Source: Acidobacteriota bacterium (GTDB taxonomy: Bacteria > Acidobacteriota > Vicinamibacteria > Marinacidobacterales > Marinacidobacteraceae). From it: DNA of 64,000 nucleotides. The position numbers and the translations under genes are program-made. The stretch spans positions 1-64,000 of the forward strand of contig JAJEFG010000082.1 of assembly GCA_022820545.1 (NCBI GenBank), given 5' to 3'. Of the stretch, positions 2,028 to 25,145 are shown in pieces. The notes under the pieces were generated by a model, which saw nothing but the letters and a program-made list of their open reading frames with translations, was not told where the DNA came from and did no database searches. The number at the start of each line of letters is the position of its first letter. Within the stretch, counting starts at the first letter, position 1.

Positions 2028-2214
2028 GTCTCGACCGACCGGAGGACGGCGCGCTCATTTCTGTCAAGCTGGCGCCGCGTCCGCATGTTCGCAGTGACTG
2101 GTTCCAGGCGCACGGCGTGAACGCGAGCTGCGCTCACGCTCGTTCCATGTCGTCGCGGCACCCGATTGCGGGCGGCACAGCGATTGATTATTGTTGTATA
2201 TCCTTGATCGAACC

Positions 2215-3423
2215 GTGGATATTCAACAAATAAGTCGATCCGATCTTCACCGGGCGGCCCTCCAGGGACTCGAGGAAGCCCCTGTCGTTGCCTTGCTTGG
2301 CGCCCGGCAGGTGGGGAAGACGACGCTGGCTCGCCGCATCGTCGCCGACTGGAAGGGGCCCTCCACGCTTCTCGATCTGGAGCGGCCCGACGTTCGGGAA
2401 GCGCTCTCCCGCACTCCGGACCGCGTGCTCCGTGACCGGGAGGGGCTCGTGGTTCTCGATGAGGTCCAGCGGTTACCGGGCCTGTTCGAAACGCTGCGCC
2501 CGATTTGCGACGACCCGGATCGAAAGGCGGTGTTCCTGCTGCTCGGCAGCGCGTCGTGGGACATGGTCCGCGGGATTTCCGAGACCCTGGCCGGGCGCAT
2601 CCAGTTCATCGATGTCCCCGGCTTCTCGCTCGCCGAGGTCGGAGCGCAGCATCAGGACCGTCTGTGGATGCGCGGCGGATTCCCGCGCGCCTGGCTCGCA
2701 GCGTCCGACCCGGCCTGGACGCGCTGGATGCAGTCGTTCACCCGGACCTTCCTCGAGCGGGACATTCCGGGTCTGGGCTCGAAGGTCGCCCCGGAGACCC
2801 TCGGCAGGTTCTGGCGCATGCTCGCCCACTGGCACGGCCAGCTCTGGAACGCCGCCGAACTGGCGCGCTCCATGGACGTGAGCCCCGGCGCGGTGAACCA
2901 CTACCGCGACCTGCTCGCCGGCTCGTTCATGATCCGGGTGCTGCCGCCCTGGTTCGAAAACCTCGGCAAACGGCTCGTCAAATCGCCGCGGGTGTTCCTG
3001 CGCGACACCGGCGTCCTGCACTTCCTGCTGGGGATCGAGGAGCCGGAGCAATTGCCGCTCCATCCACGGTACGGGGCAAGCTGGGAGGGATTCGCGCTGG
3101 AACAGACACTCATCGCCCACGGGGGGCACGAGGCCTGTTTCTACCGGACCCAGCGCGGCGCCGAACTGGATCTTCTGCTATTCCGCGGCGGGAAGCGGTA
3201 CGGCTTCGAGTTCAAGTGCACGGACGCGCCGAAGACCACCAAATCCATGCACGTCGTGGCGGACGATCTGGGCATCGAACACCTCTGGGTGGTGTACCCG
3301 GGGGAGCTGGAGTACCCGCTGACCGAGGGGATCACCGCTGTTCCCCTCGGAAAGGTACGAGGCTTGTCACTACCGGGATCGGGCCGAACGGTCGGCGGAG
3401 TCACATCGAGAACGCGCACCTGA
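2215..3423 (+). CDS. Lone DUF4143-family ATPase with fused 3' end
   Basis: An AAA_14-type ATPase with a C-terminal DUF4143 domain. Walker A is LLGARQVGKTT near residue 28, Walker B is LVVLDEVQR near 88, and the DUF4143 nuclease-like motif is GAELDLLLF ... YGFEFKC near 315-335, so Asp and Glu-x-Lys are present. I prefer the GTG at 2215 over the TTG at 2191 because a TATATC -10-like element at 2197-2202 would put the transcript start downstream of 2191. The normal end is expected near ITAVPLGKV (3356); instead the frame runs on to 3423, antisense to the end of the STAND gene. It is only distantly related to the DUF4143 genes of the two cassettes and has no STAND partner of its own. Role unknown; DUF4143 ATPases are common and mostly uncharacterised. 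Confidence 0.85.
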   Translation: MDIQQISRSDLHRAALQGLEEAPVVALLGARQVGKTTLARRIVADWKGPSTLLDLERPDVREALSRTPDRVLRDREGLVVLDEVQRLPGLFETLRPICDDPDRKAVFLLLGSASWDMVRGISETLAGRIQFIDVPGFSLAEVGAQHQDRLWMRGGFPRAWLAASDPAWTRWMQSFTRTFLERDIPGLGSKVAPETLGRFWRMLAHWHGQLWNAAELARSMDVSPGAVNHYRDLLAGSFMIRVLPPWFENLGKRLVKSPRVFLRDTGVLHFLLGIEEPEQLPLHPRYGASWEGFALEQTLIAHGGHEACFYRTQRGAELDLLLFRGGKRYGFEFKCTDAPKTTKSMHVVADDLGIEHLWVVYPGELEYPLTEGITAVPLGKVRGLSLPGSGRTVGGVTSRTRT

Positions 3424-6400
3424 ATCGTCGCCTCGCTGTCGTGGGGCAGTGTTTCCTCGAGAGCCTGCCGCAGATCCTCCGGAGTCGCCGGCCGCTGCTC
3501 GGACGGACCCTTGCCGACGCGGCCCCCGCCGAACCAGAGGCCGAGATAGATCCCGTGTCCGCTGGCGGCCGGGAGCGTCGTGTACTTCGGAATGAGCTGT
3601 TCGGAGACGGCCGTCCAGAGGCCTGGATGGCCTTCGCGCTTGATTTCGATGGGAACGGCAATTCCGTCGCAGGACACGCGGAGGTCACTCCGAGTGTTGC
3701 CGGCGTGACGGGCCTCGGGCAGCACGACGATCCGGTCGCCCAGTCTCGCGCGCAGCGCCCCGAGCACCGCGTCGCGGCACGAGTTCTCCGGCTTGGGACT
3801 CACGGGACGTCCGTACGAGTCCTCATTCCAGAAGTCGCGCCACGTGTTCTCGTCCCCGCCGCGAAGGTCGGCTGCGAGATCGTCCAGATGACCGGCAACG
3901 AGCGCGACGAGGTCGGCCGCGTTGCTCGGAAGTCCCCCGCGCAGCGTCTCCGCAACGCGCTCCACCGAAGCAGGCGCATAGCCGGCGTCGCGGCTCGCGG
4001 TGCGCTGGCGGTCGCGCGCGAACTCCAGTGTCCGCCTCCACTCGGCCAGAGTCGGATCCGCCAGCAGCGACTCCAGCGCCTCCCCCGCAGCGGCGCCCGG
4101 CTGCGCGCCGAGAATCCCGATCCACCCGCGTGTCATTGCCGCCGCCCGCGCCGGAAGGTCCACGCGGCCTTCCTTCCACTCCTCGTCCGGCGCGAACATC
4201 GGCCCGAATCGCTGGACGAGCGGCTTCAGGGTCGCCGGATCCGTGACTCTCACCATGGACGGGGCGGCCCAATCGGGGCACAGGAAGACCGCCACCTCGC
4301 GCGTGGCCTCGTCCTGGGCCCGTGTGGAGTCGCCAAACTGCGCCCGGTAGTCCTCCGGGGCGGCGACCAGACCCGCCGCCAGCCAGTGCGCCCGCTGGGC
4401 GGTGGTGACGCTCTTCGAAGCGACTTTGCGGGCAATGATCTTCCGGAGTTCCGTCCGGTCGGCGTGCCGCAACGCCGCCCAGAGCAGGCAGTCGAGGACC
4501 CGAAGCTGGGTCCCCAGGCCGCGCAACGGAAAGCCCCGCAAGAGCGGCAGCGACGCTTGGCGGGCTACCTCCGCGTAGTCCGGGTCCATGGCCAGACGAT
4601 CCAGATGCACGAGGCTGGCGCTCCCGGCGGCGATGTTGGGTTTCGCCCAGCGGACGAAGACCTCGGCAACCAGCTCCGGGCGCGACCGCAACAGTTCTCC
4701 AAGCCACGGAGGCGTCTCCAGCCGACCCGTCGGGACCGTGTAGTAGAGGGTCAGTGCGATCCGTCGCTGCGTGTCGTCGAGGGTTGCGAGTCGCCCCGGA
4801 TCCTCTCGCTCGATCACTTCGAGTCCGGCGAGGAACGGCAACGAGAGGTAGTGGAACCGGGATTCGGCGCGCAGGCGGAGGATCTCCGCCATCTCGGGGA
4901 CGTCCTCGCGGAAGGGGACGCCGCTCAGTCCGCGAAGCGCCGCGTCCACGAGGGTCGCATCGGAGAACCAGTCGCCAGCGCCCGGCCCGCCGACGTACTC
5001 GCGCAGCGTCTCCAGATACGCCCGCGCCAGGCGGTGCAGCACCGCAGGTGACGCCCGGTTTCCCCGCAGCGCCTCCGTTTCCGATCTCACCTGATGCTGC
5101 CACTCATCGACCCGCTCCCTCGGTTCCGCCGGGTGTTCCCGCCGGTCGCGCCTGATCCCCAGGTATCCGGGCGGCAGCGGGGTCTGCAGCAAGTCCGGAA
5201 GTCCTTCTTCCAGACGCCCGCGCCAGCGCGTCCGTTCGGTCAGTTCTTCCAGCGTGATTCCCTCCACCGCGGAACGCCGGACGGCCTGCCGGAGCAACTC
5301 TTCCGCCAATCGGGGACGGGCGTCCGCCAGCTCCACGGCCCGGTCCAGACAGAACCTTCCGAAGCCTTCCGGCAACCGGGACCCGTACAGGGTCTCGGCG
5401 ACCCGGTACGTCGGAATCGGGAGATCGTCCGCCTCCGGACACCGGGTGAAGCCCTCCAGCCAGAGCGCCTTCTGGAGATCGGGACGCCGCTCGAGGAACG
5501 TGCGGATCGCGCGCTCCGCTTCCTCGGCGCTGGGGTCCCCGGATGCCGGCGCCACACCGATGCGGAGCCAGTCGTAGAGCCGGGCCGGCGGCGTCCGGTC
5601 GCCGACGGATGCCAGCGTCCGGGCCACCAGACGAACGGGAAGATCGTTGAGGAACGCCGCATTGAGTGCCGGTCGCAGTCCGGGAAGCCTGGCCCCGAGG
5701 GCCTCCAGCAGATCGGGCAGTCGCTCCTCCGGAGTCTGCTCCAGGAAGTCGAAGCGCCAGAATTTGTAGTGCCTGCCGAAGAGTTCGTCCGGCTGGTCGA
5801 GCAGGTAGTTCCAAATCTCCCCGGGTGGAATCTCCTCGGGATACATCCGGGCAAGGAGGGTTCCGAGAAGCTCCCGATCGGGATCGCGGAGCGCGCCGCG
5901 GCGGATGTCGAGCAGGAGCCGGTGTACGCCGTCCCGCCGCGCCTCCGCCGCCACACAGTTGTGGAAGAAGGCGTCCAGCGCTCGGCGGCGGACGACGGAC
6001 CACCGGGTCTCGTCGCGCACGATCCCGAGGAGGAGGTCGGAGAACTCCGGCATCGGCTCGCCGAGCGCCAGCGCCGGGAGCACGAAACCGGTGACAACCT
6101 GGTCGGCGTCCTCACGGCCCGTTGCTTCAAGGACGTGCCGGAGGGTCGGAGCCAGATCCGGGACGGCAAGGGACCGCAGCGTGTCCTCCGGCAGCCGTCC
6201 GGCGTCCAGTTTCGGATCCTGAGCGTGGATCCGGTTCAGGAGTCGCGCTTTGTCGCTGGGTGTGAAGTCGTGGAGGTCCCCGTAAGCCACCACACCGAGC
6301 GGATCCCGTTCGATCAGGCGCGCGCGGGCTGGCGGGCAGTGGGCCGCGAGCCACGCGGCAAGGCCGCGGAGGGGCGTCGGCGGGGCGCCGTCCGGCGCCG

Positions 6401-7394
6401 TCATCAGGGCGAACACGCGGCCAGCCGGCAAGCCGCTCCTGATCCGACCGGCGAGATGCCGTGCTCCCAGGAACTCGGCAGTCTGGCGATGATGGGGTGC
6501 GAACCGCCGGACGCCTGGGGGGTCGGCCTCGGTGAACAGCCTGGTGCCGAGCGCTGCCCGCGCCAGGCGCCGATCGGACGGACGGAAGTCGTCCAGCGGC
6601 GGGTAGCCGTCATCCGACGATGAGGCATTGAGCGAACACCCGGCCGCCCCGGCGAGCAGCAGCTTCGCGCAGAGTTCGGCCGCGGCGTCGACGATCGCAG
6701 CAGGACTTGGCTGGTCTTTCGCCGCGTCGCGGTGCTCGGCGTTGCGCTCGCCGGCCATGTGGAGGCATGCGGCCTCAAAAGCCTCCCGGCGGCTTGCGGG
6801 CCAGTCGCGAGCGGCGGCGAAAGCCCCGATGAGGATTTCGATGCCCTGCGGATTCCGGAGCCACCCGAACAGTCCCTTGTCCCGGGCCGATTTCAGGAAC
6901 CGCCGGGCCTTGGCGCCTCCCAGGTTCGCTTCCAACAGGTGCTCGATGTCCGGATCGCGGAGCGGATCGAGTCGAAGCGCGGTGACGGTTTCGTCCGGGG
7001 ACACCGTCCGCAGGCGCTCCCGATCGCTCGCGAACCAGTCGGCAGCGCGGCACGAGAGCCGGAAGCGCGGCCTGCCGAGCGCATCGAGTTGTCGCCGCAC
7101 ATCGTCAAACACCGCTCGCGGATCGCCCTGCCCCGCCCGCACCTCGTCGAGTCCGTCAAGAAACAGCGTCTTCCCGGACCACGCGTCGGCCCGGGCTTCG
7201 GCGAACGTGAGGAAGTCCCGGACCGGAAGGAACAGCGCGTCGGCCCCGAGAGCCTCCGCCTCGCGGCGGAACTCGGTCGTCTTGCCCGCCCCCGGATCGC
7301 CGAGCAGCACGAAGGCCGCGGCGTCGCGGAAGGCCGCAAGCGGCTGGGACCCGCCGTCGCCGGCTTCGGTGACGGTGCGGGATACGAGGATCAT
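3141..7394 (-). CDS. NACHT/STAND-like NTPase with C-terminal PD-(D/E)XK nuclease motif, cassette copy 1
   Basis: A 1417-residue protein. Walker A GDPGAGKT is at 32-39 and a textbook NACHT Walker B, LFLDGLDEV, at 77-85, followed by RLSCRAADW. An end-of-NTPase block HRQTAEFLGARHLA lies near 315. About 900 helical, repeat-like residues follow, and then a nuclease-type motif: RSDLRVS with Asp ~1237 and PIEIKREGH with Glu-x-Lys ~1250-1252. The architecture resembles antiviral STAND proteins, in which a repeat sensor controls an NTPase and nuclease effector, but with the nuclease at the C-terminus. The ATG overlaps the stop of the upstream DUF4143 gene by 4 bp, so the two are translationally coupled. 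The last ~85 residues are read antisense from the opposing DUF4143 gene; the native stop has been lost. Defence function is inference; domain calls are from motifs. Confidence 0.85.
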   Translation of the reverse strand: MILVSRTVTEAGDGGSQPLAAFRDAAAFVLLGDPGAGKTTEFRREAEALGADALFLPVRDFLTFAEARADAWSGKTLFLDGLDEVRAGQGDPRAVFDDVRRQLDALGRPRFRLSCRAADWFASDRERLRTVSPDETVTALRLDPLRDPDIEHLLEANLGGAKARRFLKSARDKGLFGWLRNPQGIEILIGAFAAARDWPASRREAFEAACLHMAGERNAEHRDAAKDQPSPAAIVDAAAELCAKLLLAGAAGCSLNASSSDDGYPPLDDFRPSDRRLARAALGTRLFTEADPPGVRRFAPHHRQTAEFLGARHLAGRIRSGLPAGRVFALMTAPDGAPPTPLRGLAAWLAAHCPPARARLIERDPLGVVAYGDLHDFTPSDKARLLNRIHAQDPKLDAGRLPEDTLRSLAVPDLAPTLRHVLEATGREDADQVVTGFVLPALALGEPMPEFSDLLLGIVRDETRWSVVRRRALDAFFHNCVAAEARRDGVHRLLLDIRRGALRDPDRELLGTLLARMYPEEIPPGEIWNYLLDQPDELFGRHYKFWRFDFLEQTPEERLPDLLEALGARLPGLRPALNAAFLNDLPVRLVARTLASVGDRTPPARLYDWLRIGVAPASGDPSAEEAERAIRTFLERRPDLQKALWLEGFTRCPEADDLPIPTYRVAETLYGSRLPEGFGRFCLDRAVELADARPRLAEELLRQAVRRSAVEGITLEELTERTRWRGRLEEGLPDLLQTPLPPGYLGIRRDRREHPAEPRERVDEWQHQVRSETEALRGNRASPAVLHRLARAYLETLREYVGGPGAGDWFSDATLVDAALRGLSGVPFREDVPEMAEILRLRAESRFHYLSLPFLAGLEVIEREDPGRLATLDDTQRRIALTLYYTVPTGRLETPPWLGELLRSRPELVAEVFVRWAKPNIAAGSASLVHLDRLAMDPDYAEVARQASLPLLRGFPLRGLGTQLRVLDCLLWAALRHADRTELRKIIARKVASKSVTTAQRAHWLAAGLVAAPEDYRAQFGDSTRAQDEATREVAVFLCPDWAAPSMVRVTDPATLKPLVQRFGPMFAPDEEWKEGRVDLPARAAAMTRGWIGILGAQPGAAAGEALESLLADPTLAEWRRTLEFARDRQRTASRDAGYAPASVERVAETLRGGLPSNAADLVALVAGHLDDLAADLRGGDENTWRDFWNEDSYGRPVSPKPENSCRDAVLGALRARLGDRIVVLPEARHAGNTRSDLRVSCDGIAVPIEIKREGHPGLWTAVSEQLIPKYTTLPAASGHGIYLGLWFGGGRVGKGPSEQRPATPEDLRQALEETLPHDSEATIQVRVLDVTPPTVRPDPGSDKPRTFPRGTAVIPSVSGYSSSPGYTTQRCSMPRSSATTCMDLVVFGASVHLNSKPYRFPPRNSRRSSSAPRWVR

Positions 7395-8644
7395 TCGTCC
7401 GGCGCCACCCAGTACCCGGCAGGCTCGGCAAGGAAATCCGCCAGGGACATGCCTCCCGGCCCCACGAGCACGGTGCGGGCGTGCTCGTAGCGGCGCCGGA
7501 ACGCCGCCAGCCCGCGGCCGCTCGAACGGTCGCGTCCGGTCTTGACCTCGACCGCCGCCAGCTTCGGCCCGCGTTCGATCACGAAGTCCACTTCATGCGC
7601 GTCGTCCCGCCAGTAGTGGACGCGCAGGCCGATCCCACCGGTGTTGATCAGGTGCGCGCCGACGGCGGTCTCGACGACCCGGCCCCAGAACGTGCGGTCC
7701 GCCGTGGCTTCTTCGAAGGTGTAGCCAGAAGCCGCCGTCATCAACGAGGTGTCGAGGACGTTCAGCTTGGGACTCGCCGCCCGGTCGGACATCGGCCCGG
7801 CGTAGCGCGCGAGTCCGGCGACCAGCCCGACGCGCCCCAGCAGGTCGAGGTACCGGGCGAGCGTGGTCGTGTTGCCCGCGTCCCGGAGCTGGCCGAGCAT
7901 CTTGTTGTAGGCGACCATCTGCCCCGACATCTGGCAGGCGAGCCGGAAGAGGCGCGTCAACAACGCCGGCCGGTCCACCCGGGTCAGCGCCAGCACGTCG
8001 CGCTCGACGCTCGCGTCAGCGATCGAGCGGCGCACGTAGTCGCGCCACTCCGGAGGGGTTCCGGCGTGCGGCGCCGCGCCGGGGTAGCCGCCGTAGAAGA
8101 CGTAGCGGTCGATGTCGAAACCGAAGGCGGCGGCGATCTCCGGGAACGACCACTGCGCCACCGGCATCGTCTCGAACCGCCCGGCCAGGCTCTCGTTCAG
8201 GCCCTGCTGCATCGTCATCGGACTCGATCCGGCGATGACGACCCGCAGGGGACGGTCGGCGAACCGGTCCGCGTCCCAGAGTCCCTTGACCACCTCCGAC
8301 CAGCGCGGGACCTTCTGGATCTCGTCGAGCGCCAGCACGAAGCCCCGGCCGGCCGCGGCTTTCTCCCGCGCGCGCTCCCAGCGCCCGACGAGCCAGCGTT
8401 CGTCCCGCATCGCGGCCGGGAACGGATCCGTCCGCGGCGCGTCCCGCCCCGGGCGGCGGCCGGGCGAAGGGTCCGGCTCGTCCACGGCGATGTAGTGAAA
8501 CGGCATCCCGCAACGGACCAGCGCCTGCCGGATGATGACGGTCTTGCCCGTCTGCCGGGGCCCGAACACCGCCACGATCCGGCGGGGCGTCTCGCGGAGG
8601 CGGTCGGCCAGGGCGGCGACCTGGCTGCGCTCGAACCGGGGCAT
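7391..8644 (-). CDS. DUF4143-family ATPase, cassette copy 1
   Basis: A 417-residue ATPase: Walker A FGPRQTGKT at 27-35, Walker B FVLALDEIQ at 102-110, sensor-like VVIAGSSPMTM near 135-145, a winged-helix-like middle, and DUF4143 at the C-terminus. The nuclease-like residues are intact: HEVDFVIE (Glu351, Asp353) and LAAVEVKTG (Glu366-x-Lys368). It is the first gene of the two-gene cassette; its stop overlaps the start of the STAND-nuclease gene. The ATG at 8644 has no Shine-Dalgarno sequence. A promoter-like TTGAGT-N16-GCTAAT places the transcript start at the ATG, so translation is probably leaderless. It may act as a second ATPase/nuclease subunit or as a partner regulating the STAND protein; no function is established. 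Confidence 0.88.
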   Translation of the reverse strand: MPRFERSQVAALADRLRETPRRIVAVFGPRQTGKTVIIRQALVRCGMPFHYIAVDEPDPSPGRRPGRDAPRTDPFPAAMRDERWLVGRWERAREKAAAGRGFVLALDEIQKVPRWSEVVKGLWDADRFADRPLRVVIAGSSPMTMQQGLNESLAGRFETMPVAQWSFPEIAAAFGFDIDRYVFYGGYPGAAPHAGTPPEWRDYVRRSIADASVERDVLALTRVDRPALLTRLFRLACQMSGQMVAYNKMLGQLRDAGNTTTLARYLDLLGRVGLVAGLARYAGPMSDRAASPKLNVLDTSLMTAASGYTFEEATADRTFWGRVVETAVGAHLINTGGIGLRVHYWRDDAHEVDFVIERGPKLAAVEVKTGRDRSSGRGLAAFRRRYEHARTVLVGPGGMSLADFLAEPAGYWVAPDE

Positions 8645-8690
8645 TGCAGGAAATTAGCGTAAATGTTGGAGTTCACTCAATATCGTAATT
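8645..8690 (-). promoter_or_regulatory. Promoter and operator-like palindrome of cassette copy 1
   Basis: This AT-rich block is nearly identical to 33132-33175 in front of cassette copy 2. On the minus strand it has TTGAGT, 16 nt, then GCTAAT, ending about 8 nt before the ATG. An imperfect 21-bp palindrome lies at 8663-8683 with outer arms ATnTTG/CAAnAT and an inner GAGT-GA-ACTC. Conservation of non-coding DNA between copies whose coding parts have diverged suggests a functional promoter and operator. The protein that binds it is unknown. Confidence 0.6.
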
Positions 8691-8830: not shown

Positions 8831-9166
8831 TCACCGAGGGCTCGGCGCGGCGTGCCCCGCGGCCTCCGAAACGACCGCCGGTTCGGCGCGCAACTTCAGG
8901 CCCAGGGCGTCAAGAACCCGGAGAACGGTGCCCAATGTGGGATTGCGCTCGCCCGAAAGCGCCTTGTAGAGGCTCTCGCGGGACAGGCCGGCATGGGACG
9001 CGACCTCCGACATTCCCCTGGCGCGAGCGATGTCGCCCAACGCCTTGGCGACAAACGCGGCATCGCCGTCTGCCTCCTCCAGGCAGGCTTCCAGGTAGGC
9101 GGCCATTTCCTCCGGCGTGCGGAGGTGCTCGGCCACGTCGTAGGGTGAAGTAACGGTCTTGGTCAT
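8831..9166 (-). CDS. higA: HigA-like antitoxin (HTH, addiction-module antidote)
   Basis: A 111-residue protein of the addiction-module antidote family, starting MTKTVTSPYDVAEHLRTPEE. The conserved N-terminal block, with EEMAAYLEACLEEADGD, precedes an XRE-type helix-turn-helix (IARARGMSEVASHAGLSRES, then LYKALSGERNPTLGT). It binds and neutralises the HigB-type toxin encoded 9 bp upstream and represses the shared promoter. Toxin-first order is typical of this family. The last ~15 residues are Ala/Ser-rich. About 140 bp separate its end from the divergent-side promoter of the cassette at 8690. Confidence 0.88.
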   Translation of the reverse strand: MTKTVTSPYDVAEHLRTPEEMAAYLEACLEEADGDAAFVAKALGDIARARGMSEVASHAGLSRESLYKALSGERNPTLGTVLRVLDALGLKLRAEPAVVSEAAGHAAPSPR

Positions 9167-9175
9167 TGTGTCTAC

Positions 9176-9466
9176 CTACAGGTTTCTTGCGAGGCGCTGG
9201 GCCGTCCGAATGTCGTCGCTCTGGGATCGTTTGTCTCCGCCGGCCAGGAGCACGATGATCGTGCGGTCCCGTTTCGTGAAATACACCCGGTAGCCCGGTC
9301 CGTACGCGATCCGGAGTTCCGAGACGCCTTCGCCGACGGGTCGGACATCTCCCGGGTTCCCGGCTGCCAGCCGCTCAACCCGGACGAGGACACGCGCCCG
9401 GGCGCGGGCATCACGCAAGCTGTCCAGCCACTTGGCGTACGTCCCAGTCTTTCGGATCGTGAACAC
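9176..9466 (-). CDS. higB: HigB/RelE-ParE-superfamily toxin
   Basis: A 96-residue toxin beginning MFTIRKTGTYAKWLDSLRDA. It shows the RelE-like fold signature ARVLVRVERLAAGNPGDVRP, then GVSELRIAYGPGYRVYFT and IIVLLAGGDKRSQ, as in the HigB-like (COG3657) family of ribosome-dependent mRNA interferases or related toxins. The start is a GTG. Transcribed first, with HigA following after a 9-bp gap. The palindrome at 9476-9491 just upstream is the likely operator. Confidence 0.9.
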   Translation of the reverse strand: MFTIRKTGTYAKWLDSLRDARARARVLVRVERLAAGNPGDVRPVGEGVSELRIAYGPGYRVYFTKRDRTIIVLLAGGDKRSQSDDIRTAQRLARNL

Positions 9467-9783: not shown

Positions 9784-10725
9784 GTGGACGACTGGAGAGC
9801 GTCTCACGCCTATCCGCTCGTAACGCTGCGTACCCTCCTGCAGGAGCGCGCTGACCGCGTGAACGCGGAAGCGCTGGTAGTACAGAGGCTCAAACGCCTA
9901 GCCTCCGTGGAGGCGAAGCTCCGACGGTTCCCCAAGATGAAGGTTTCGCGGATGCAGGACCTCGGTGGCTGTCGGGCTGTTCTTCCGTCTGTACGTGCGG
10001 TGAACGAACTCGTGGATTCGTACAGGACAGGGCGCGAGGGACATGAGTTCATCAAGGAATCCGACTACATCGGCCAGCCGAAGAGCAACGGTTACCGCAG
10101 CCTTCATCGCGTCTATCGGTATCGCTCCCGGGCGAGCCGGAATGCGCCCTGGGACGGCCACCGCATCGAGATCCAGATCCGGTCTCGCCTCCAACACGCT
10201 TGGGCGACGACCGTCGAGACGATCGACGCCGTTGTCGGCACTCACCTGAAGGCGGGCGGGCCCACCAATAGTCAGTGGGATCGCTTCTTCACACTGATGG
10301 GGAGTGTCCTCGCAATCGAAGAGGAGTGTCCTCCGGTGCCCGGGACCCCAACGACGCTGTCCGAACTGCGGAATGAAGTGCATGAACTGTTCGGTGAGCT
10401 CAACGTAGGAGGCACTTTATTTGGGCTCGGCGGCGCCATACACACCGCTGCGTTTTCCCCGAACACAGCGTGGTTCCTGATTGGCCTCAGTGCGATGAGC
10501 AGAACGGTGAGCGTTCAGACCTATCTCCGGCGGGATTTTCCTGTCGCCCGGGCTGACTACCTCCGGCTCGAAGAATGGAGTGAACGCGAGCCAGGGTTCC
10601 AAGCCTGCTTGCTCTCCGCGGATTCGGCAAGAGCCCTGCGAGTGGCGTATCCGAACTACTTTCTCGATGTCAGCGCATTCGCCAAGTCGCTGAATCGGTT
10701 CCTCGGTCCCCGGTCCGGCCGGTAG
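9784..10725 (+). CDS. RelA/SpoT-domain alarmone synthetase-like protein (5' end frameshifted)
   Basis: A RelA/SpoT nucleotidyltransferase-domain protein without hydrolase or regulatory domains. Synthetase motifs are intact: KLRRFPKMKVSRMQDLGGCR (ATP site and catalytic Asp), SDYIGQPKSNGYRSLH (GTP-binding G-Y-x-S-x-H) and RIEIQIRSRLQHAWATTVE (catalytic Glu in E-x-Q-I-R). The C-terminal third is a family-specific domain. Such stand-alone synthetases can be toxic small alarmone synthetases or anti-phage effectors, and the location in a defence island next to HigBA fits that. The in-frame start is only a GTG at 9784, inside the conserved region; the expected first ~40 residues lie in a different frame at 9665-9735. 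Whether the locus makes active protein is uncertain. It ends before a good terminator. Confidence 0.82.
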   Translation: MDDWRASHAYPLVTLRTLLQERADRVNAEALVVQRLKRLASVEAKLRRFPKMKVSRMQDLGGCRAVLPSVRAVNELVDSYRTGREGHEFIKESDYIGQPKSNGYRSLHRVYRYRSRASRNAPWDGHRIEIQIRSRLQHAWATTVETIDAVVGTHLKAGGPTNSQWDRFFTLMGSVLAIEEECPPVPGTPTTLSELRNEVHELFGELNVGGTLFGLGGAIHTAAFSPNTAWFLIGLSAMSRTVSVQTYLRRDFPVARADYLRLEEWSEREPGFQACLLSADSARALRVAYPNYFLDVSAFAKSLNRFLGPRSGR

Positions 10726-10884: not shown

Positions 10885-13800
10885 GTGACGACGCCCGCAG
10901 CAAGCGCCGTCCCGCGCGCCGGGATGCTCGCCACGGTGCGCAACCGGCGCGGGGTAGTGGCGGCGGTCGAACCCTTCGACGGCGACACCGGGCGCCTCCA
11001 CCTCGTCCACCTCGAATACAAGGACTGGCGCTCACCGACGGAAGAACGCCTGCTCTGGGAGCTGGAACCTCAGCGCGCGCTCCTCGAACCGAACGCCCTC
11101 CCCGATCCGGCTGCGGACCCCATGCCGCCGGAGGACTTCGACGCCCTCCTCCGCGCCGCGCGCTGGACCGCGCTCTCCCCCTGGCTCGACCCGGACGGCG
11201 ACGGCCCGCTTGGCCCGCAGCCGGTTGCGAGCCCGTTCCACGGCGGCGTCCGGATCGAGAACTACCAGCTCGTCCCGCTGCTGAAGGCGCTCTCGATGCC
11301 GCGCGTGAGCTTGCTGATCGCCGACGACGTCGGCCTGGGCAAGACCGTCGAGGCCGGCCTGATCCTCACCGAACTGCTGCTCCGGCGGCGCATCCGCCGC
11401 GTGCTCATCCTGACCCCGGCGTCGCTTCGCCACCAGTGGCGCGACGAACTCCACGACAAGTTCTCGCTGCCTTTCGAGGTCGTGGACCGGAAGGGGACCG
11501 ACCGCCTCCGCCGCCGCCTCGGAATGGACGCGAACCCCTGGCGTTCCTTCGACCGCATCGTCGCCTCGTATCACTACCTGCGGCAACCGGACGTGCGGGA
11601 GCAGTTCCTCGCCGCCGCCCCCCCTCCCAACGGTTCGCCGCACCTGCCCTGGGATCTGCTGATCGTGGACGAGTGCCACAACCTGATGCCCGCCCCGCTC
11701 GGCGAGGACAGCGAGCTCTGCCGCACGCTGCGCCTCCTGGCGCCGCAGTTCGAACACCGGCTGTTCCTCTCCGCCACACCGCACAACGGCCACACGCGCT
11801 CGTTCACCGGCCTCCTCGAGATGCTCGACCCGGTGCGCTTCGCCCGCACCAGCGAGATGGGCGACGCCATGCGCCGCCGGGTTCAGGACGTGATGATCCG
11901 CCGGCTGAAACGCCAGGTAAACGAATCCAGCGCCGCACCGCGCTTCGGTCGCCGGCAGGAGCCACAGCCCGTCCCGCTCAACGCCGATACCCGTGAAACG
12001 GCGCTTTCCGACGCATTCGACGCCTTCCGCACGGCGGTGCGCCGGCTGGTCATCGAGGACCCGAAGGCGCGCCGCCGTGCGGGTACCTTCGCCGTGGAGA
12101 TCCTCGGCAAGCGACTCCTCTCCTGCCCGACGGCCTTCGCCGAATCCTGGCGCCGGACACGTCAGGGACTCCGGGAATCGGCAGCGTCCGAGGCAGATCT
12201 GGCCGCCGCCGAACGCGCCCTCCGACGCGAGACGGGCGACGACCGCGAGACCGAACAGCGCGAGGCCACCGCGGCGGCGGTCACCGGCGCCTGGCTCAGG
12301 AACTTCGCCGCCGCCGTGAGTGCCGAGATCCAGGGAATCGAAAGCGCGCTCTCCGGTCTCGGGTTCGACCTCGACGGCGCCACGACCGTCGAGCAGACGC
12401 CCGCTGCCGATGCCCGCTTCGACGCGCTGACCGCCCTGATCGAGCGCCTGCTGCGCGAAGACGGCGGCTTCCGAGCCGACGAACGTCTGGTCGTCTTCAC
12501 CGAATTCAAGACGACGCTCGACTACCTGACGCGGCGACTCCGGGAGCGATATCCATCCGACCGGATCCTGACCCTCTTCGGCGCCGGGTCACCGGACGGG
12601 ATGAGCGAGACCGACCGCGAGACGGTCAAGGCCGCCTTCAACGATCCGGCGTCCCGCGTCCGGGTGCTGGTTGCCACCGACGCCGCGTCGGAAGGGCTCA
12701 ACCTGCACCGCACCGCCCGCGCCCTGCTCCACTACGACCTGCCGTGGAACCCGTCCCGGCTGGAGCAGCGGAACGGCCGGCTCGACCGCTACGGCCAGGG
12801 GCGCGGCGTCATCGTCCACTACTTCCTCGGGCGTACGGACTCCGACCTCGCCTTCCTCAATCACGTGCTGCGCAAGGCGGACGAGATCCGCGAGGACCTC
12901 GGTTCCGTCAACGAGGTCTTCGACCGGGCCGCGCACCGGCGGCTGATCCGGGGTGAGAAGCACGCCCCGGTGCTCGCGGAGCTCGACGGGGGACTCGCGG
13001 ACGCACGACACCGCGGCGCCCCCGACGCGGACGCGCGGATCACCGCCGACGCCCGCACCGCCGCGCTGGCCGCGGAGGTGGACCTCGACCCCGACACGCT
13101 CCGGGACACCCTGGAAGCCGCGATGGCGATCCGCGCCGGGCGGCCCCAACTGGCGCCGGTCCCGACGCAACCCGGCCTCTACCGCCTGAAACGCACGGAC
13201 CTGCCGGATTGGACGGACGTCGTGGACGAGGCGGTGCGGCTACGAGCGGCGGGCAACGGGAAGGGAGCGGTGCCGCAACTCGCCTTCAGCGAGGACCCCT
13301 TCATGGAAGAAGTGGGGCCGCTCCAAGTGTTCCGGCCGCGCCCGGACGCCCTGCTCATGCACCTGGCGCACCCGCTGTTCCACCGCGCGCTCGGCGTGCT
13401 CGCGCGGCGGCGCTATCCCGGCGAAGTCCAGGTCTCGCGCTGGACGGTGCGCCGCGGCGGGATTCCGGAGGGCGCACCGCCGGGACTGGACGCCCTCGTC
13501 CTGCTGAGCGTCGAGGAGTTCGCAGTGAACGAACTCCGGGAGACCTTCCACCGCTGGGTCCGGACGGTGACGCTCCCGGTGCGCGGCGGCGCGCTCGGCG
13601 CGGCGCTTCCCCATTCCCCGGCGCGCACGGTCCACGGCGGCCGTCCAACCGACGCTCCCGAGGACCGCGGCCGCGCCGCCGACATCCTGGAGAGTGTCGG
13701 ACCCGCGTTGAAACGCTTGTTGCGCGCCCACCGCAACGAACTCACCGAGGCGCTCAAGGAGCAACTCGAAGTCGCCGGGGCGCAGGCGTTGAAGGACGAG

Positions 13801-14139
13801 GACGAGCGCTACCGGCAGCGCCAGGGCGAGCTGTCGGCGCTGATCCAGAACCAGACGATCGCCCGCCTGGAGACCGAGCTGGAGAAGCTGGCCGCTGAAC
13901 GCGCCCGTGGCCTGCTCTTCAACCAGGCGGAGCGTCACGCGGAGATCGAACGCTCTGAGGAGGAAAAGCGGGAAGAGCTCGTCCGCCGCCGTCAGCACCT
14001 CGATCAAGTCCGGGAGCGGCTCGCGGAGGAGCGCACGCGCATCCTCGAACGCCTGCTCCCGGCGCGCTTCGCGCTCGCCGACGAGGCCCAGGTGTTTCCG
14101 GTGACGGTCGAGGTGCGCCTCCCCGATCGGCTTTCATGA
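10885..14139 (+). CDS. drmD: SNF2-family helicase, DISARM DrmD-like
   Basis: A 1084-residue SWI2/SNF2-type DNA translocase. Motif I is ADDVGLGKTVEAGLIL at about 145-160, motif II is VDECHN near 264, motif III is LSATPHNGHT near 296, and motifs V-VI, ASEGLNLH and EQRNGRLDRYGQG, are near 600-640. The C-terminal ~250 residues include a long charged coiled coil (about 950-1060). Its stop overlaps the ATG of the methylase by 4 bp. This helicase + adenine methylase order is that of the drmD-drmMI accessory pair of class 1 DISARM, in which the helicase cooperates with methylation-guided restriction. DrmABC core genes are not next to it, so a stand-alone SNF2-methylase restriction system is an alternative. 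The start is a GTG at 10885, chosen because homology-like sequence begins soon after. Confidence 0.78.
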   Translation: MTTPAASAVPRAGMLATVRNRRGVVAAVEPFDGDTGRLHLVHLEYKDWRSPTEERLLWELEPQRALLEPNALPDPAADPMPPEDFDALLRAARWTALSPWLDPDGDGPLGPQPVASPFHGGVRIENYQLVPLLKALSMPRVSLLIADDVGLGKTVEAGLILTELLLRRRIRRVLILTPASLRHQWRDELHDKFSLPFEVVDRKGTDRLRRRLGMDANPWRSFDRIVASYHYLRQPDVREQFLAAAPPPNGSPHLPWDLLIVDECHNLMPAPLGEDSELCRTLRLLAPQFEHRLFLSATPHNGHTRSFTGLLEMLDPVRFARTSEMGDAMRRRVQDVMIRRLKRQVNESSAAPRFGRRQEPQPVPLNADTRETALSDAFDAFRTAVRRLVIEDPKARRRAGTFAVEILGKRLLSCPTAFAESWRRTRQGLRESAASEADLAAAERALRRETGDDRETEQREATAAAVTGAWLRNFAAAVSAEIQGIESALSGLGFDLDGATTVEQTPAADARFDALTALIERLLREDGGFRADERLVVFTEFKTTLDYLTRRLRERYPSDRILTLFGAGSPDGMSETDRETVKAAFNDPASRVRVLVATDAASEGLNLHRTARALLHYDLPWNPSRLEQRNGRLDRYGQGRGVIVHYFLGRTDSDLAFLNHVLRKADEIREDLGSVNEVFDRAAHRRLIRGEKHAPVLAELDGGLADARHRGAPDADARITADARTAALAAEVDLDPDTLRDTLEAAMAIRAGRPQLAPVPTQPGLYRLKRTDLPDWTDVVDEAVRLRAAGNGKGAVPQLAFSEDPFMEEVGPLQVFRPRPDALLMHLAHPLFHRALGVLARRRYPGEVQVSRWTVRRGGIPEGAPPGLDALVLLSVEEFAVNELRETFHRWVRTVTLPVRGGALGAALPHSPARTVHGGRPTDAPEDRGRAADILESVGPALKRLLRAHRNELTEALKEQLEVAGAQALKDEDERYRQRQGELSALIQNQTIARLETELEKLAAERARGLLFNQAERHAEIERSEEEKREELVRRRQHLDQVRERLAEERTRILERLLPARFALADEAQVFPVTVEVRLPDRLS

Positions 14140-17100
14140 AGGCGCCGAAGCCTCTAGGGCTGCCCGGCTGGGACCGGCTCAGCCATGGCGGCCTGCTGCT
14201 CGACCCCACCCGGCTCGCGGCGCTCTCCCGAACGAAACCCCAGCCGCTTTCCCGGTTCGCCGAGCAGCAGTTGCGCAAACGCGCGAGCGCCGTTCTCGAC
14301 GGAAGCGGCGATCCCTCCGGCTTCGCAGCGTTCGTGCTCGAGGAGATCTGCGGTCTTCGCCAACCGCAGGGCGCCTGGACGCGCGGCAACCGTATTTCGC
14401 CGCGCGAGAGTAGGAAGGCGGTCACCGGCGAGACGGTCCGGCCGCGCCAGTTGTGGGCCGGACCTCGCGGTGCCCGCCTGCCGGTGTTCTTCGACGAAAG
14501 CAAGCGGATCGGGATCGGGCGTGGCCGCCGCGTCGTCAGCCGGGTGCTCGGCTGGCTCCGCGCCGGCGGCGAGCCGCTCGCGCTGCTGACCAACGGTCGC
14601 GAGTGGCGGCTGCTGTTCGCCGGACTCGATTACGAAGCGTGGTGCCAGTGGGACCTCGAGCTGTGGTTCGACGAGGGGCAGCTCTCGCCACAGGTCACGG
14701 CGCTCCGCGCCCTGCTGAACCCCAAGCTCTGGATCCCGGAGACCGAGGGCGCCATCCCGCCGCTCCTCCAGGCGATCCGCGACACGCGCAAGGGACAGGC
14801 GGAACTCTCGGAAGTCCTCGGCGAGCGGGTGCGCGAAGCGGTCGAGATCCTCATCCGGGGACACGGCGAGGCCCTCCGCGACGGCTGCGCGGACGTGGCC
14901 CCGGCAGACATCTACCGCGCCGCCTGCCGGGTGGCGATGCGGCTCGTGGTGATCCTGTTCGCCGAGGCGCGCGGGTTGCTGCCCCGGAACAACGCGCTCT
15001 ACGACGCAAGCTACGGCCTGAAGGGTCTGTTCGAACGCCTCGACCGCGCCGACATGCGCGGCGGATTCGGAAACGATTTCGCCGCCTGGCCGCGGGTGCT
15101 CGCGCTGTTCGCGCTGGTGCGCGACGGCTCGCACCACCCGGAACTCCCAGTCAAGGCCTACGGTGGGGAGTTGTTCGCGCCGGGGGAGCGCGATGCCGAC
15201 GGCGTCTCCCGCGCCCTCGCGGTGTTCGAGACGGCCTCCGTCGACGTCGAGAGCAAGGCCCTCCCGGACCGGGACGTCCACGCCATGCTCCGGCTGCTCA
15301 CGCGAACCACGGTCCGCATCCGACAAGGCCGCGCCGGAACGCGGATTGCGGCCCCGGTGGACTTCTCCGACCTGTCCTCGGAATACATCGGCGTCCTCTA
15401 CGAGGGGCTGCTCGACTACGAGCTCAAGGCGGCACCGAAGGACGGTCCGGTGATCTTCCTGTCGGTCGGCGACCAGGCCGCGCTGCCGCTCGGCCGGCTG
15501 GAGGCGATGGACGACCGCGCCCTCAAGATGCTCTTCGAGAGCCTGAAGAAGCCCGGACGGACGGAAACGGACGACGCGGCCGAGGACGAAGCGGAGGACG
15601 ACGAGCCGATCCCAGAGACCGCGGCGCCCGCCGACGAAACCGAACCGACCCCGGGCGACGAGCGCCAGCACAGCCGCGAGCGGGCCGAGGCGTGGGCGCG
15701 CCGGGCGGCGCAGGCGGCGGGACTGGTGCGGAAACCGCGCGGGCGGGACACCCCCGAACGGCGGCTGCTCCACGATCAGCGACTCGCAGCCCAGGCGCAC
15801 AAGCTCGTCGCCCGCGTCGTGCTTCCCGGGGAGTGGTATCTCGTCCGCTGGGGCGGCACCCGTAAGGGCTCGGGCAGCTTCTACACCCGGCCCGGGCTCG
15901 CGGTGCCCACCGTGCACCGCACCCTGCGCCCGCTCGCCTATGACCCGCCGGCGGGTGGCGACGGTTCCCCGCACACCGCCGCGCCGGCCGCGCGCTGGAC
16001 TCCCAAACCGCCCCAGCGCATCCTGGCGCTGACGGTCTGCGATCCGGCATGCGGCTCGGGGACCTTTCCGCTCGGCGCGCTCCGGTTTCTAACCGACGCG
16101 CTCTACGCGTCGCTTCAGCATCACGGCCGGCTCCAACCGGAGGGCGATCGCACGCTGGTGCGGCTGCTCGGCATCCAGACGAATGCGGACGAGGAAGACG
16201 AGAGCCTGGCCGACGAGCTGATTCCCTGCCGCCCCGAAGACGACGATTTCGAACCGCGCCTCCGGGCGGTGCTGCGCCGTTACGTCGTGGAGCGGTGCAT
16301 CTACGCCGTGGATCTCGACCCGCTGGCGGTCGAGCTCTGCCGGCTATCGCTCTGGATCGAGACGATGGACCGGAACCTGCCCTTCGGGTTCCTCGACCAC
16401 AAGATCAAGTGCGGGAACGCGCTCGTCGGCGCGTGGTTCGACCAGTTCCGCCACTACCCGGCCATGGCGTGGAAGAACCGGGAGGGCGGCGACAAGAACC
16501 ACACGAACGGCGTCCACTTCGAGCGAAATGCCCGCACGAAGGCGATCAAGGAGTTCGTGAAGGACACCCTGACGCCGGATCTGCGCCGCTTCCTGCGTGG
16601 CCCGGGGCTTTTCTCGCCGGACGACCTGCTGGCGAAGACGGCGGCCGCGCACGACGAGGCGTTCGATGTCCTGGCGCAGTGCCACTCCCTGCCCGTCCGC
16701 GACGCCGCCGCGCGGGCGCGGGTGTATCGGGAGGACTTCCTGGGCTCGGCTCCGTGGCGCTCACTGAAGGAGGCAATGGACCGCTGGTGCGCGTGCTGGT
16801 TCTGGCCGGCCGAGGAGATCGAAGCAGCTCCGCTGCCGACAACCTTCGCCGATCCGCCGCCGGAGACCCGCGCCGCCGCCGAGCGCATCGCGTCGGAAAT
16901 GCGGTTCTTCCACTGGGAGCTGGAGTTCCCGGACGTGTTCCGCGAGGCGGGCTCCGGGTTCGACGCCGTCCTCGGCAACCCGCCCTGGGACATCGCCAAA
17001 CCGAACTCAAGGGAGTTCTTCTCCAACCGGGATCCGCTCTATCGGTCCTACGGCAAACAGGAGGCGATCCGCCGTCAGTCCGAGTACTTCGCGGACGCCA

Positions 17101-19382
17101 CCGTAGAGCGGGCCTGGCTCGACTACTGCGGCCGGTTCCGCGCCCAGTCGAACTTCATGGGCCATAGCGCATACCCATTCGGCGATCCGGAGGAACACCC
17201 GAAGAGTCGTTTCGCCGTCGCCCGCGGCAACGACAACGCGGCGCTGCATGGCCGGTGGCGAGCCGGCCGCCCGCGCTCGATCGGCTACGCCGACCCGGAT
17301 CACCCGTTCCGCCATCAGGGCTCGGCGGACCTGAATCTCTACAAGCTGTTTCTCGAAACCGCCCACGCGCTGCTGCGGTCCGGCGGCCGGCTGGGGTTCC
17401 TGATCCCGTCCGGCCTGTACTCGGACCACGGGACCGGCGCGCTGCGCGACCTGTTTTTGGAGCGCTGCCGCTGGGAATGGCTGTTCAGCTTTGAGAACCC
17501 GGAGCGGATCTTTCCGATTCATCGAAGCTTCAAGTTCAACCCGATCGTTGTCGAGAAGGGCGGGACCACCGAGGCAATCAGGACCGCGTTCATGCGGCGC
17601 AACCTCAACGACTGGGAACGCGCGGAAGAACTCGCCACGACCTACTCGCGAGCCCAGATCACGCAGTTCAGCCCGAAGAGCCGCGCCATCCTCGAGATCC
17701 AGTCGCAGCGCGACCTCGGAATCCTGGAGAAGATCTACGCGAACGGGGTGCTACTGGGCGATGAGGGGCCGGAAGGTTGGACAGTCCAGTACAGCACCGA
17801 GTTCCACATGACGGGCGACTCGCCCCTCTTCCGGTCGCGCGAACAGTGGGAAATCGAGGGCTACCACCCCGATGAATACAGCCGCTGGCTCCTCGGTGAC
17901 TGGCACCCCATCGGCGAACTCTGGGCTGAACTCGGTGTGGATCCATCACGTCCAAAACCGCCGGAGATCGCACTTGAAGACTGGCTGTTCGACACAGCGG
18001 CCAAACCGGATCGCCGCGACGCGGAAGCACGGTTTGTCCACGGGCACCTCCTAAAGCCCGGTGACGTCGAACACACCGATTGGGAGGCGCGCTGCGCTCA
18101 ACCGCCCTACGACGGGTTTCCCGTTCCGCGGGGGGAGATTCCGCCGGGCATGGTGCTCTCACGGGACGGGACTGCTTGGATTCGAGAAGCCGAAATCCGG
18201 GACATCGCGCTACCCCTGCACCAGGGGATCATGGTGCAGCCCTTTGTACCCAGCGCCCGCGGATGGATCAGCGGGACCGGGCTTCGGGCGAAATGGGATT
18301 ACCGCAGTCTCGATAACCCGCAGTGGAATCCGCAGTTTCTGCTGAAACGGAGCGTGGCCGCCCAGAAGGACCGCGGGTGGTCTCGGGCGCGGCTCGGCTA
18401 TCGTGAGGTAGCGCGGAGTACGGACGCCCGCTCGTTCATCGGGGCAGTGCTCCCCTCGTTTCCGGCCGGGCACAAGGTGCCGATTCTGCATGTCGCTGAC
18501 GACGCGGCTAATGGCGTCGCAAACGCCGCAGCCCTGTTCAACAGCTTCGTATTCGACTGGCTCGTCCGGCGGCGTCTCGGAGCGGCTGCTCTGGCCTGGT
18601 ACGTCCTCGCCGAATGCGCCCTGCCGCATCCCGCCGGAATGCCGCGCCTGCTGTCGCTCGTGGACACGCTCAACTTCTCTGCGAAACCGTTCGCCGCCCT
18701 ACAGACCGCCCGCGCGGCGCCGGTTCCTGCCGCACTATGCCCGGGAGAGCGGATCCGGCTCCGTGCGATTCTGGACGCCGTCGCCTGCACCGTTTACGGG
18801 TGCGACTCGAATGATCTTCGCTACATCCTGCGCGACTCCGACCTGCCCGTACGAAACGTGAGCGCCCGTTCCCGCCGGGCCGCTACGTTCGACCCGCGCG
18901 GATTCTGGCGCGTGGACCGCGACAAGGATCCCGAACTCCGCCACGCCGTCCTGACCGCCGTCGCCCTCCACGACCTCGAAGCCAAGATCGAGACCACCAG
19001 CGGCGACCGCGACGCAGGAATCGAAGCGTTCCTGAACCAAAACCACGGCGACGGCTGGCTCCTCCCCGAAACCCTCCGCCTCGCCGACTACGGCCTCGGG
19101 CACGACGACCGCGCCCGCCACCCGCAACCCGTCGCTTCCCGCCTTGGCCCCCGCTTCCTCGACTGGCAGCTCACCCAGACCCCCGAGGAGTCCCACCGCG
19201 AATCCCACCTCCACGCCCGCAACCTCCTCGGCGAACACCCCTACCACCGCCTCCTCGAAGACATCACCCGCCGCCGAGAAGGACGCGAGCCCGAGCCCGC
19301 CGACCTCCTCCGCGTCGCCGAACCCGACTTCGAGTACCGCGCCAAGAAGCCACGCGACACCAAACAACCAAAGCTCTTCTGA
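14136..19382 (+). CDS. drmMI: Giant adenine-specific DNA methylase (Eco57I/DrmMI-like)
   Basis: A 1748-residue protein with an N6-adenine methyltransferase core: SAM-binding CDPACGSGTFPLGALRFL near 635 and catalytic NPPWDIAKPN near 947. The N-terminal ~500 residues look like the specificity/nuclease-type region of type IIG-like enzymes (FDESKRIGIGRGRRVVSRVL, then LLTNGREWRLLF); an acidic low-complexity linker lies at about 485-520. The C-terminal part (about 1050-1700) is a target-recognition-like region. It is translationally coupled to the SNF2 helicase gene upstream. In class 1 DISARM the methylase marks self DNA; here the pair may be the modification side of a restriction system. Whether it can also cut DNA cannot be told from motifs that I can see. 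Confidence 0.8.
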   Translation: MKAPKPLGLPGWDRLSHGGLLLDPTRLAALSRTKPQPLSRFAEQQLRKRASAVLDGSGDPSGFAAFVLEEICGLRQPQGAWTRGNRISPRESRKAVTGETVRPRQLWAGPRGARLPVFFDESKRIGIGRGRRVVSRVLGWLRAGGEPLALLTNGREWRLLFAGLDYEAWCQWDLELWFDEGQLSPQVTALRALLNPKLWIPETEGAIPPLLQAIRDTRKGQAELSEVLGERVREAVEILIRGHGEALRDGCADVAPADIYRAACRVAMRLVVILFAEARGLLPRNNALYDASYGLKGLFERLDRADMRGGFGNDFAAWPRVLALFALVRDGSHHPELPVKAYGGELFAPGERDADGVSRALAVFETASVDVESKALPDRDVHAMLRLLTRTTVRIRQGRAGTRIAAPVDFSDLSSEYIGVLYEGLLDYELKAAPKDGPVIFLSVGDQAALPLGRLEAMDDRALKMLFESLKKPGRTETDDAAEDEAEDDEPIPETAAPADETEPTPGDERQHSRERAEAWARRAAQAAGLVRKPRGRDTPERRLLHDQRLAAQAHKLVARVVLPGEWYLVRWGGTRKGSGSFYTRPGLAVPTVHRTLRPLAYDPPAGGDGSPHTAAPAARWTPKPPQRILALTVCDPACGSGTFPLGALRFLTDALYASLQHHGRLQPEGDRTLVRLLGIQTNADEEDESLADELIPCRPEDDDFEPRLRAVLRRYVVERCIYAVDLDPLAVELCRLSLWIETMDRNLPFGFLDHKIKCGNALVGAWFDQFRHYPAMAWKNREGGDKNHTNGVHFERNARTKAIKEFVKDTLTPDLRRFLRGPGLFSPDDLLAKTAAAHDEAFDVLAQCHSLPVRDAAARARVYREDFLGSAPWRSLKEAMDRWCACWFWPAEEIEAAPLPTTFADPPPETRAAAERIASEMRFFHWELEFPDVFREAGSGFDAVLGNPPWDIAKPNSREFFSNRDPLYRSYGKQEAIRRQSEYFADATVERAWLDYCGRFRAQSNFMGHSAYPFGDPEEHPKSRFAVARGNDNAALHGRWRAGRPRSIGYADPDHPFRHQGSADLNLYKLFLETAHALLRSGGRLGFLIPSGLYSDHGTGALRDLFLERCRWEWLFSFENPERIFPIHRSFKFNPIVVEKGGTTEAIRTAFMRRNLNDWERAEELATTYSRAQITQFSPKSRAILEIQSQRDLGILEKIYANGVLLGDEGPEGWTVQYSTEFHMTGDSPLFRSREQWEIEGYHPDEYSRWLLGDWHPIGELWAELGVDPSRPKPPEIALEDWLFDTAAKPDRRDAEARFVHGHLLKPGDVEHTDWEARCAQPPYDGFPVPRGEIPPGMVLSRDGTAWIREAEIRDIALPLHQGIMVQPFVPSARGWISGTGLRAKWDYRSLDNPQWNPQFLLKRSVAAQKDRGWSRARLGYREVARSTDARSFIGAVLPSFPAGHKVPILHVADDAANGVANAAALFNSFVFDWLVRRRLGAAALAWYVLAECALPHPAGMPRLLSLVDTLNFSAKPFAALQTARAAPVPAALCPGERIRLRAILDAVACTVYGCDSNDLRYILRDSDLPVRNVSARSRRAATFDPRGFWRVDRDKDPELRHAVLTAVALHDLEAKIETTSGDRDAGIEAFLNQNHGDGWLLPETLRLADYGLGHDDRARHPQPVASRLGPRFLDWQLTQTPEESHRESHLHARNLLGEHPYHRLLEDITRRREGREPEPADLLRVAEPDFEYRAKKPRDTKQPKLF

Positions 19383-19386
19383 CCCG

Positions 19387-19461
19387 ATGTTCGACACATC
19401 CGACAGAGTCCTCTGTCGGTGCCGCGCAGACCAAGAGAGCCGCATCGAGTGCAGCGAAGCG
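19387..19461 (+). pseudogene. Relic of the 5' end of the AlbA_2-type gene, left of the sirtuin
   Basis: Four bases after the methylase stop, ATG TTC GAC ACA starts a short frame MFDTSDRVLCRCRADQES. It aligns codon by codon with the start of the broken gene at 23395 (MFDTSEEVLRQCHAGEDT), including the preceding CTGACCC. Only about 75 bp remain before the sirtuin gene. The same gene start thus lies on both sides of the sirtuin, in the same orientation, about 4 kb apart. I read this as the footprint of insertion of the sirtuin gene. Confidence 0.65.
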
Positions 19462-19505
19462 CGGACGCATGATCGACGCCGATACAAGTTCCCGTATTCA
19501 CGCCC

Positions 19506-24345: not shown

Positions 24346-24420
24346 CCGCCCGTTCTCACCCCACTCCCCCGGCCCGCCAGGCACCCCGTCCTTTCACTAG
24401 AATCCGCCCCCGGCTGCCCG

Positions 24421-25134: not shown

Positions 25135-25145
25135 GACAAGATCAA

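Follow-up and report, generated by a model that had tools for sequence, protein, structure and literature searches.

A DUF4143 ATPase gene coupled to an EruA-like NACHT protein gene: a candidate two-protein antiphage cassette

In a 64,000-nucleotide stretch of an Acidobacteriota genome (GenBank assembly GCA_022820545.1, contig JAJEFG010000082.1, positions 1 to 64,000; the window, from here on), the minus strand carries at positions 3141-8690 a cassette in which the gene for an AAA_14-DUF4143 ATPase precedes the gene for a large NACHT protein related to EruA, a protein named antiphage by NCBI. We find that this pairing extends through a whole clade of EruA-like proteins, and we propose, with a probability of about 0.6, that the two genes encode an abortive antiphage system resembling nucleotide-binding leucine-rich repeat receptors (NLRs), with a C-terminal DNase and the DUF4143 partner at the N-terminus of the NACHT module. 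The clade-wide coupling seems to be new: the open-licence literature searched, where a single paper contains the term DUF4143, gave no description of DUF4143-EruA coupling, nor any paper on EruA or HyoA as antiphage proteins. The available part of the DefensePredictor paper (PMC13092281) mentions NACHT and has no mention of Eru, Hyo or DUF4143, and the one title on a bacterial gene that contains the name EruA (PMC12839154) is about an unrelated regulator of E. coli. The DUF4143 partner matches the PADLOC model PDC-S01 (E 5.8e-144), which PMC12988326 ranks fourth in frequency among the defence types of prokaryotes, adding that experimental validation is pending for most candidates of the PADLOC core set. 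One DUF4143 lineage tied to a NACHT family named antiphage is a concrete, testable setting for DUF4143 function, and the cassette would be an example of an NLR-like arrangement whose effector lies C-terminally.

The gene pair and its large protein

The first gene of the pair (7391-8644, minus strand) encodes 417 residues with Walker A and Walker B motifs and a C-terminal D...ExK motif of PD-(D/E)XK-like type. Pfam assigns AAA_14 (1e-19) and DUF4143 (7e-29) to its product, and a sequence search against solved structures, at E up to 0.1, gave no match. It shares the four bases ATGA (7391-7394), a stop/start overlap, with the large gene (3141-7394, minus strand, 1417 codons); the original prediction, made from the sequence alone, had both the coordinates and this overlap right. 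The homologous part of its 1417-residue product stops near residue 1338; this EruA-like part (residues 1-1338) spans 3381-7394. The remaining codons, about 80 (3141-3380), find no in-frame counterpart in close relatives: the stop codon present in loci L034 and L050 has been lost, and the tail therefore runs antisense over a convergent gene at 2191-3423 (plus strand). That gene encodes a third DUF4143 ATPase, of a different lineage, and overlaps the read-through 3' end of the cassette by 283 bp. In L034 and L050, which come from two genomes of the same genus, the cassette is likewise followed by a similar, convergent gene for a DUF4143 protein.

The original prediction did not recognize the pair as a named system. 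For the large protein the idea of a nameless system had to be abandoned, because NCBIfam NF058535, the family called NACHT domain-containing antiphage protein EruA, gives a full-length alignment to it, residues 17-1332 on profile positions 16-1318, with E 6.1e-264. The N-terminal NACHT module and the conserved C-terminal D/ExK residues are further points of likeness to EruA. However, both copies of the protein in the window (a second cassette is described below) miss the curated cut-off of 1000 bits, with 879.4 and 891.9 bits, whereas 12 of the 14 relatives seen above it stand alone (three plasmid genes and nine genomes, 1035-1462 bits); the two that pass the cut-off and are yet coupled to DUF4143 come from Accumulibacter (1024.8 bits) and Sideroxydans (1017.7 bits). 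HyoA (NF058534) matches the large protein partially, best over residues 855-1332, but at 147 bits against a cut-off of 1200. Pfam finds nearly nothing in it (AAA_22, E 0.18), no family of the 2023 PADLOC library, Avs included, matched at E up to 1, and a profile search by sequence against solved-structure chains returned two chance-level chains only.

The AlphaFold2 model of residues 1-1100 (69 alignment rows; predicted local distance difference test, pLDDT, 85.7; predicted TM-score, pTM, 0.67) has a long alpha-solenoid in addition to an NTPase and a part resembling a winged helix. Its best matches among solved structures are NLRC4 (Z 24.2, 414 residues, 4.6 A), the NACHT part of NLRP3 (Z 23.9, 358 residues, 3.2 A) and NOD2 (Z 21.1); these span about 360-470 residues, whereas unrelated AAA proteins reach only Z of about 10. 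Judged by this model, the N-terminal part is an NLR-type NACHT fold, in agreement with the NACHT/STAND (signal transduction ATPase with numerous domains) assignment made at the outset. The module covers residues ~1-420 (6135-7394), with Walker A at G32-T39 and Walker B at D80-E84, and because it starts at residue 1 there is no N-terminal effector. The helical middle noted earlier is modelled as the alpha-solenoid, residues ~340-1097 (4104-6377), which we presume to be the sensor. Across the coupled clade the most variable blocks by entropy are residues 721-780, followed by 1021-1080 and 601-660, and between the two copies in the window residues 696-834 are the most diverged, with 57% identity; from these sequence comparisons, the sensor is likely to be the stretch around residues 696-834.

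A nuclease motif had also been proposed near the C-terminus, and a different fold there would have spoken against it. Residues 1085-1338 (78 rows, pLDDT 92.2, pTM 0.78) were modelled with the element order alpha-beta-beta-beta-alpha-beta, and the 50 rows listed for this model, at Z 9.0 to 5.8, are almost all nucleases, with Can2 (Z 9.0), PaqCI (8.5), EcoT38I (7.7), McrC (7.5) and EcoRV (6.3) among them. The C-terminal domain, residues ~1203-1330 (3405-3788; E1203, D1237, E1250, K1252, Q1266, Y1271), is thus a predicted PD-(D/E)XK nuclease. Its residues E1203, D1237, E1250, K1252 and Y1271 are invariant in 85 of 85 DUF4143-coupled and 14 of 14 plasmid relatives, and in the same sets K38 of Walker A and D80, D83 and E84 of Walker B are identical throughout.

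In bNACHT25, a NACHT module and a PD-(D/E)XK DNase are likewise joined in one protein, but there the DNase is N-terminal, the C-terminus is the sensor, and infection triggers the DNase, according to PMC12169576. The window protein differs from it in its C-terminal nuclease, in having NACHT at the N-terminus and in a second ATPase encoded upstream. With bacterial NLR-like NACHT proteins at large it shares the Walker A and Walker B motifs of the module but not the layout of N-terminal effector and C-terminal sensor. Avs proteins combine a STAND NTPase, a large sensor and a nuclease, as the window protein would, but carry their effector at the N-terminus. The reversed domain order that the earlier reading had attributed to the pair therefore holds as far as the C-terminal position of the nuclease is concerned but is not special to the pair: the nuclease residues are common to stand-alone relatives, which makes the reversed order a family trait.

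Association with DUF4143 across relatives

One genome per species was scanned for relatives, which gave 385; the best 80 were kept, a set that was not deduplicated and is biased to close relatives. In 75 of these 80 loci the large gene is immediately preceded, on its own strand, by a DUF4143 gene; among the 75, the DUF4143 gene is cut by a contig end in L067, L113 and L127 and split over two frames in L132. At L059 the large gene is split, with DUF4143 upstream. The other five loci comprise one cut at a contig end (L103), three without DUF4143 (L073 and L076, from one genome, and L121) and one with a remnant (L092). Junctions were compared in 80 loci where both proteins were long enough, the window copies included and in-frame starts chosen by script: 68 have a four-base overlap and 7 some other overlap, one has a gap of no more than 30 bases, and in four (L007, L010, L083 and L089) the two genes run on as a continuous frame, a natural in-frame fusion. 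The trees of the two proteins are correlated (mirror-tree r 0.836, n=80, against 0.20 for the best of 1000 permutations, which ignore relatedness, so that shared species history could add to r), and their nearest neighbours agree in 46 of 80 cases. With 26 stretches of this 3.5-Mb genome matched by the DUF4143 profile (E up to 1e-5; no more than 24 genes, since two of them account for two stretches each), a DUF4143 neighbour somewhere is unremarkable. Chance adjacency was nevertheless dismissed, since the neighbour is on the same strand, overlapping and co-evolving in most loci.

Further relatives were added from the phylum of Accumulibacter (25 of 398 genomes with a match at E up to 1e-50), from that of an Acidimicrobiia genome (2 of 246, same threshold) and from 26 plasmid records, with 14 plasmid regions read. 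A tree of 130 long sequences contains one clade in which 90 of the 97 tips have DUF4143, against none of the 33 tips outside it; these counts are slightly generous because loci L160/L135 and L177/L085 are repeats and the upstream sequence is short in the outside loci L163, L167, L175 and L015; L092 was scored by hand as absent and L059 as present. Support for the coupled clade is 0.834, with 0.995 for its main branch (81 tips) and 0.242 for the other (16 tips). The conserved partner foreseen by the original prediction is thus real in the clade of this protein. Homologues without a DUF4143 neighbour had been named there as evidence to the contrary: the neighbour is there in close relatives and missing from the wider family. 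A Paracoccus plasmid relative has a distant DUF4143 gene downstream instead of upstream.

The partners themselves form a group of their own, 80 of 80 being monophyletic (support 0.869), with 23 close solo DUF4143 loci falling outside; no EruA-like gene was found within 1.5 kb on each side of those 23. In 78-80 of the 80 partners the Walker and ExK residues are retained; copy 2 of the window is among the exceptions. As in PDC-S01, AAA_14 and DUF4143 domains are combined, but PDC-S01 is a candidate on its own, whereas in the coupled clade one lineage is tied to a NACHT protein. The simplest history would be one recruitment of a solo DUF4143 by an EruA lineage, followed by co-inheritance. A solo DUF4143 gene elsewhere in this genome (contig C18, 85318-86499) is a close relative of the cassette partner. 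Record titles place coupled loci in Acidobacteria, Latescibacteria, Gemmatimonadetes, Chloroflexi, Nitrospinota, Binatota, Dadabacteria, Acidimicrobiia, Rhodothermales, Nitrospira and Proteobacteria. Signs of carriage by viruses are one partial phage record and three relatives in IMG/VR, these with 29% identity, and the E. coli genomes searched with the best-scoring stand-alone relative gave no match.

A second complete pair lies in the same window at 27835-33131 (minus strand), which the original prediction, in its finding on the first pair, did not mention. Its large gene (27835-31890) encodes 1351 residues and its DUF4143 gene (31887-33131) 414 residues, a two-residue deletion having taken the glutamate of the ExK motif. 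Protein identity between the copies is 74% for the large protein and 89% for the DUF4143 protein, and the ratios of nonsynonymous to synonymous substitution rates, 0.28 and 0.18 respectively, indicate that both copies have been kept by selection.

A possible mechanism and its alternatives

In the abortive system that we favour, the EruA-like protein would be inactive until its solenoid senses a phage product; ATP-driven oligomerisation of the NACHT modules would then bring the C-terminal PD-(D/E)XK domains together, and the assembled domains would cut DNA, so that infection would end by killing or arrest of the cell. The DUF4143 protein, produced from the same message by coupled translation, would be seated on the N-terminal side of the NACHT module, which is the effector place in other bacterial NLRs, and would work within the same complex, its part there being that of a licensing subunit or of a second ATPase-nuclease. 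The steps of sensing, oligomerisation and DNA cutting are expected by analogy with bNACHT25, and we infer them together with the physical complex and the role of DUF4143; the latter is placed at the effector position because the fusions put it where bNACHT25-type proteins carry their effector. What the sequences contribute is the gene pair itself, its long co-inheritance, the natural in-frame fusions and the intact active-site residues of both proteins. An antiphage role is probable because the family is named antiphage, because genes of defence type occur in the window (neighbours match DrmD, DrmMI/type IIG, Dsr1 and DruE models) and because some stand-alone relatives on plasmids adjoin Ppl, Abi, TIR or Shedu genes.

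Several observations weigh against this proposal. Six tips of the coupled clade are without an intact DUF4143 (L005, L073, L076, L092, L121 and L158, of which L073 and L076 belong to one genome), so the partner is not always needed, and the DUF4143 of copy 2 is still constrained over the rest of its length without its ExK glutamate, which speaks against a nuclease role for that protein; together they argue against an absolute need for DUF4143 or for its nuclease site. The four fusions, all in one subclade, may go back to a single event or to two. For the nuclease domain the Foldseek E-values are weak (best 9.4e-3), and the presumed sensor stretch contains loops of low confidence in the AlphaFold2 model (738-758 and 796-808). 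Finally, the PADLOC families around 13 cassettes, chosen from the 80 loci, show no clear difference from those of control stretches, in a count of family members, not of per-protein matches, over 96 open reading frames (ORFs) against 97 ORFs from 11 control stretches in five genomes (PADLOC E up to 1e-20, ORFs by a simple greedy rule); control stretches L191-L193, within some tens of kb of a cassette, were excluded before counting. Among the families listed, the cassette side (25 of 36) includes HmaB, NERD+UvrD, HerA, CARF6, AbiEi, PDC-S01 and methylases, and the control side (25 of 46) DpdE, ZorD, mad3, mad6, MkoA, PD-T4-6 and AbiLi.

A more specific version, which we offer tentatively, is that of a split double-ended NLR, in which the receptor has its own C-terminal nuclease and a DUF4143 ATPase-nuclease has been recruited to the N-terminal effector position, which is empty in the receptor; in the four fused loci the link would be covalent. 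If this were true, DUF4143 and PDC-S01 proteins would serve STAND receptors as effector or accessory modules, and receptors encoded elsewhere might call solo DUF4143 copies. DUF4143 could instead be a brake or antidote that holds the EruA-like nuclease inactive in uninfected cells, its inactivation by a phage being the trigger. An upstream gene with overlapping stop and start would hold the ratio constant, and the constraint on copy 2 despite its lost glutamate fits a non-catalytic role; but six tips hold the large gene without an intact DUF4143, stand-alone relatives exist, the Walker and ExK residues of the partners are conserved, and fused parts could presumably not dissociate, which makes the brake unlikely in our judgement.

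Stand-alone EruA-type genes and solo DUF4143 genes both occur, and the 'S' of PDC-S01, which we take to designate a single-gene candidate in the PADLOC naming scheme, also counts for the idea that DUF4143 is a passenger, a separate single-gene defence travelling with a large protein that is the whole machine, as in stand-alone EruA. However, correlated trees, four-base overlaps, in-frame fusions and a DUF4143 clade made up of partners exceed what co-location would produce, and we regard this explanation as improbable. Equally doubtful to us is a role outside phage defence, such as keeping out plasmids and other mobile DNA or responding to cellular stress: no phage assay was found for the coupled clade and the neighbour count is without clear enrichment, but the kinship with a family that NCBI names antiphage and the defence-type genes of the window speak against it.

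Other genes of the window

Between the two cassette copies, three consecutive genes at 10885-23273 (plus strand) encode a DrmD-like helicase, a 1748-residue DrmMI/type IIG-like methylase and a Dsr1-like (SIR2) protein. They are followed at 23923-27404 (plus strand) by genes for a 403-residue protein without Pfam match and a 752-residue protein that combines a P-loop with weak matches of STAND and pentapeptide type; these may be a further STAND system. A gene for a 1811-residue DruE-like helicase (33265-38700, plus strand) adjoins the second cassette copy. Close to the first copy, a RelA/SpoT-domain protein (9784-10725, plus strand) that matches the defence candidate PDC-S33 adjoins a TIGR02683/TIGR02684 toxin-antitoxin pair (8831-9466, minus strand), and a gene for a DUF6119 protein (38739-40310, minus strand) lies at the edge of the defence-type region.

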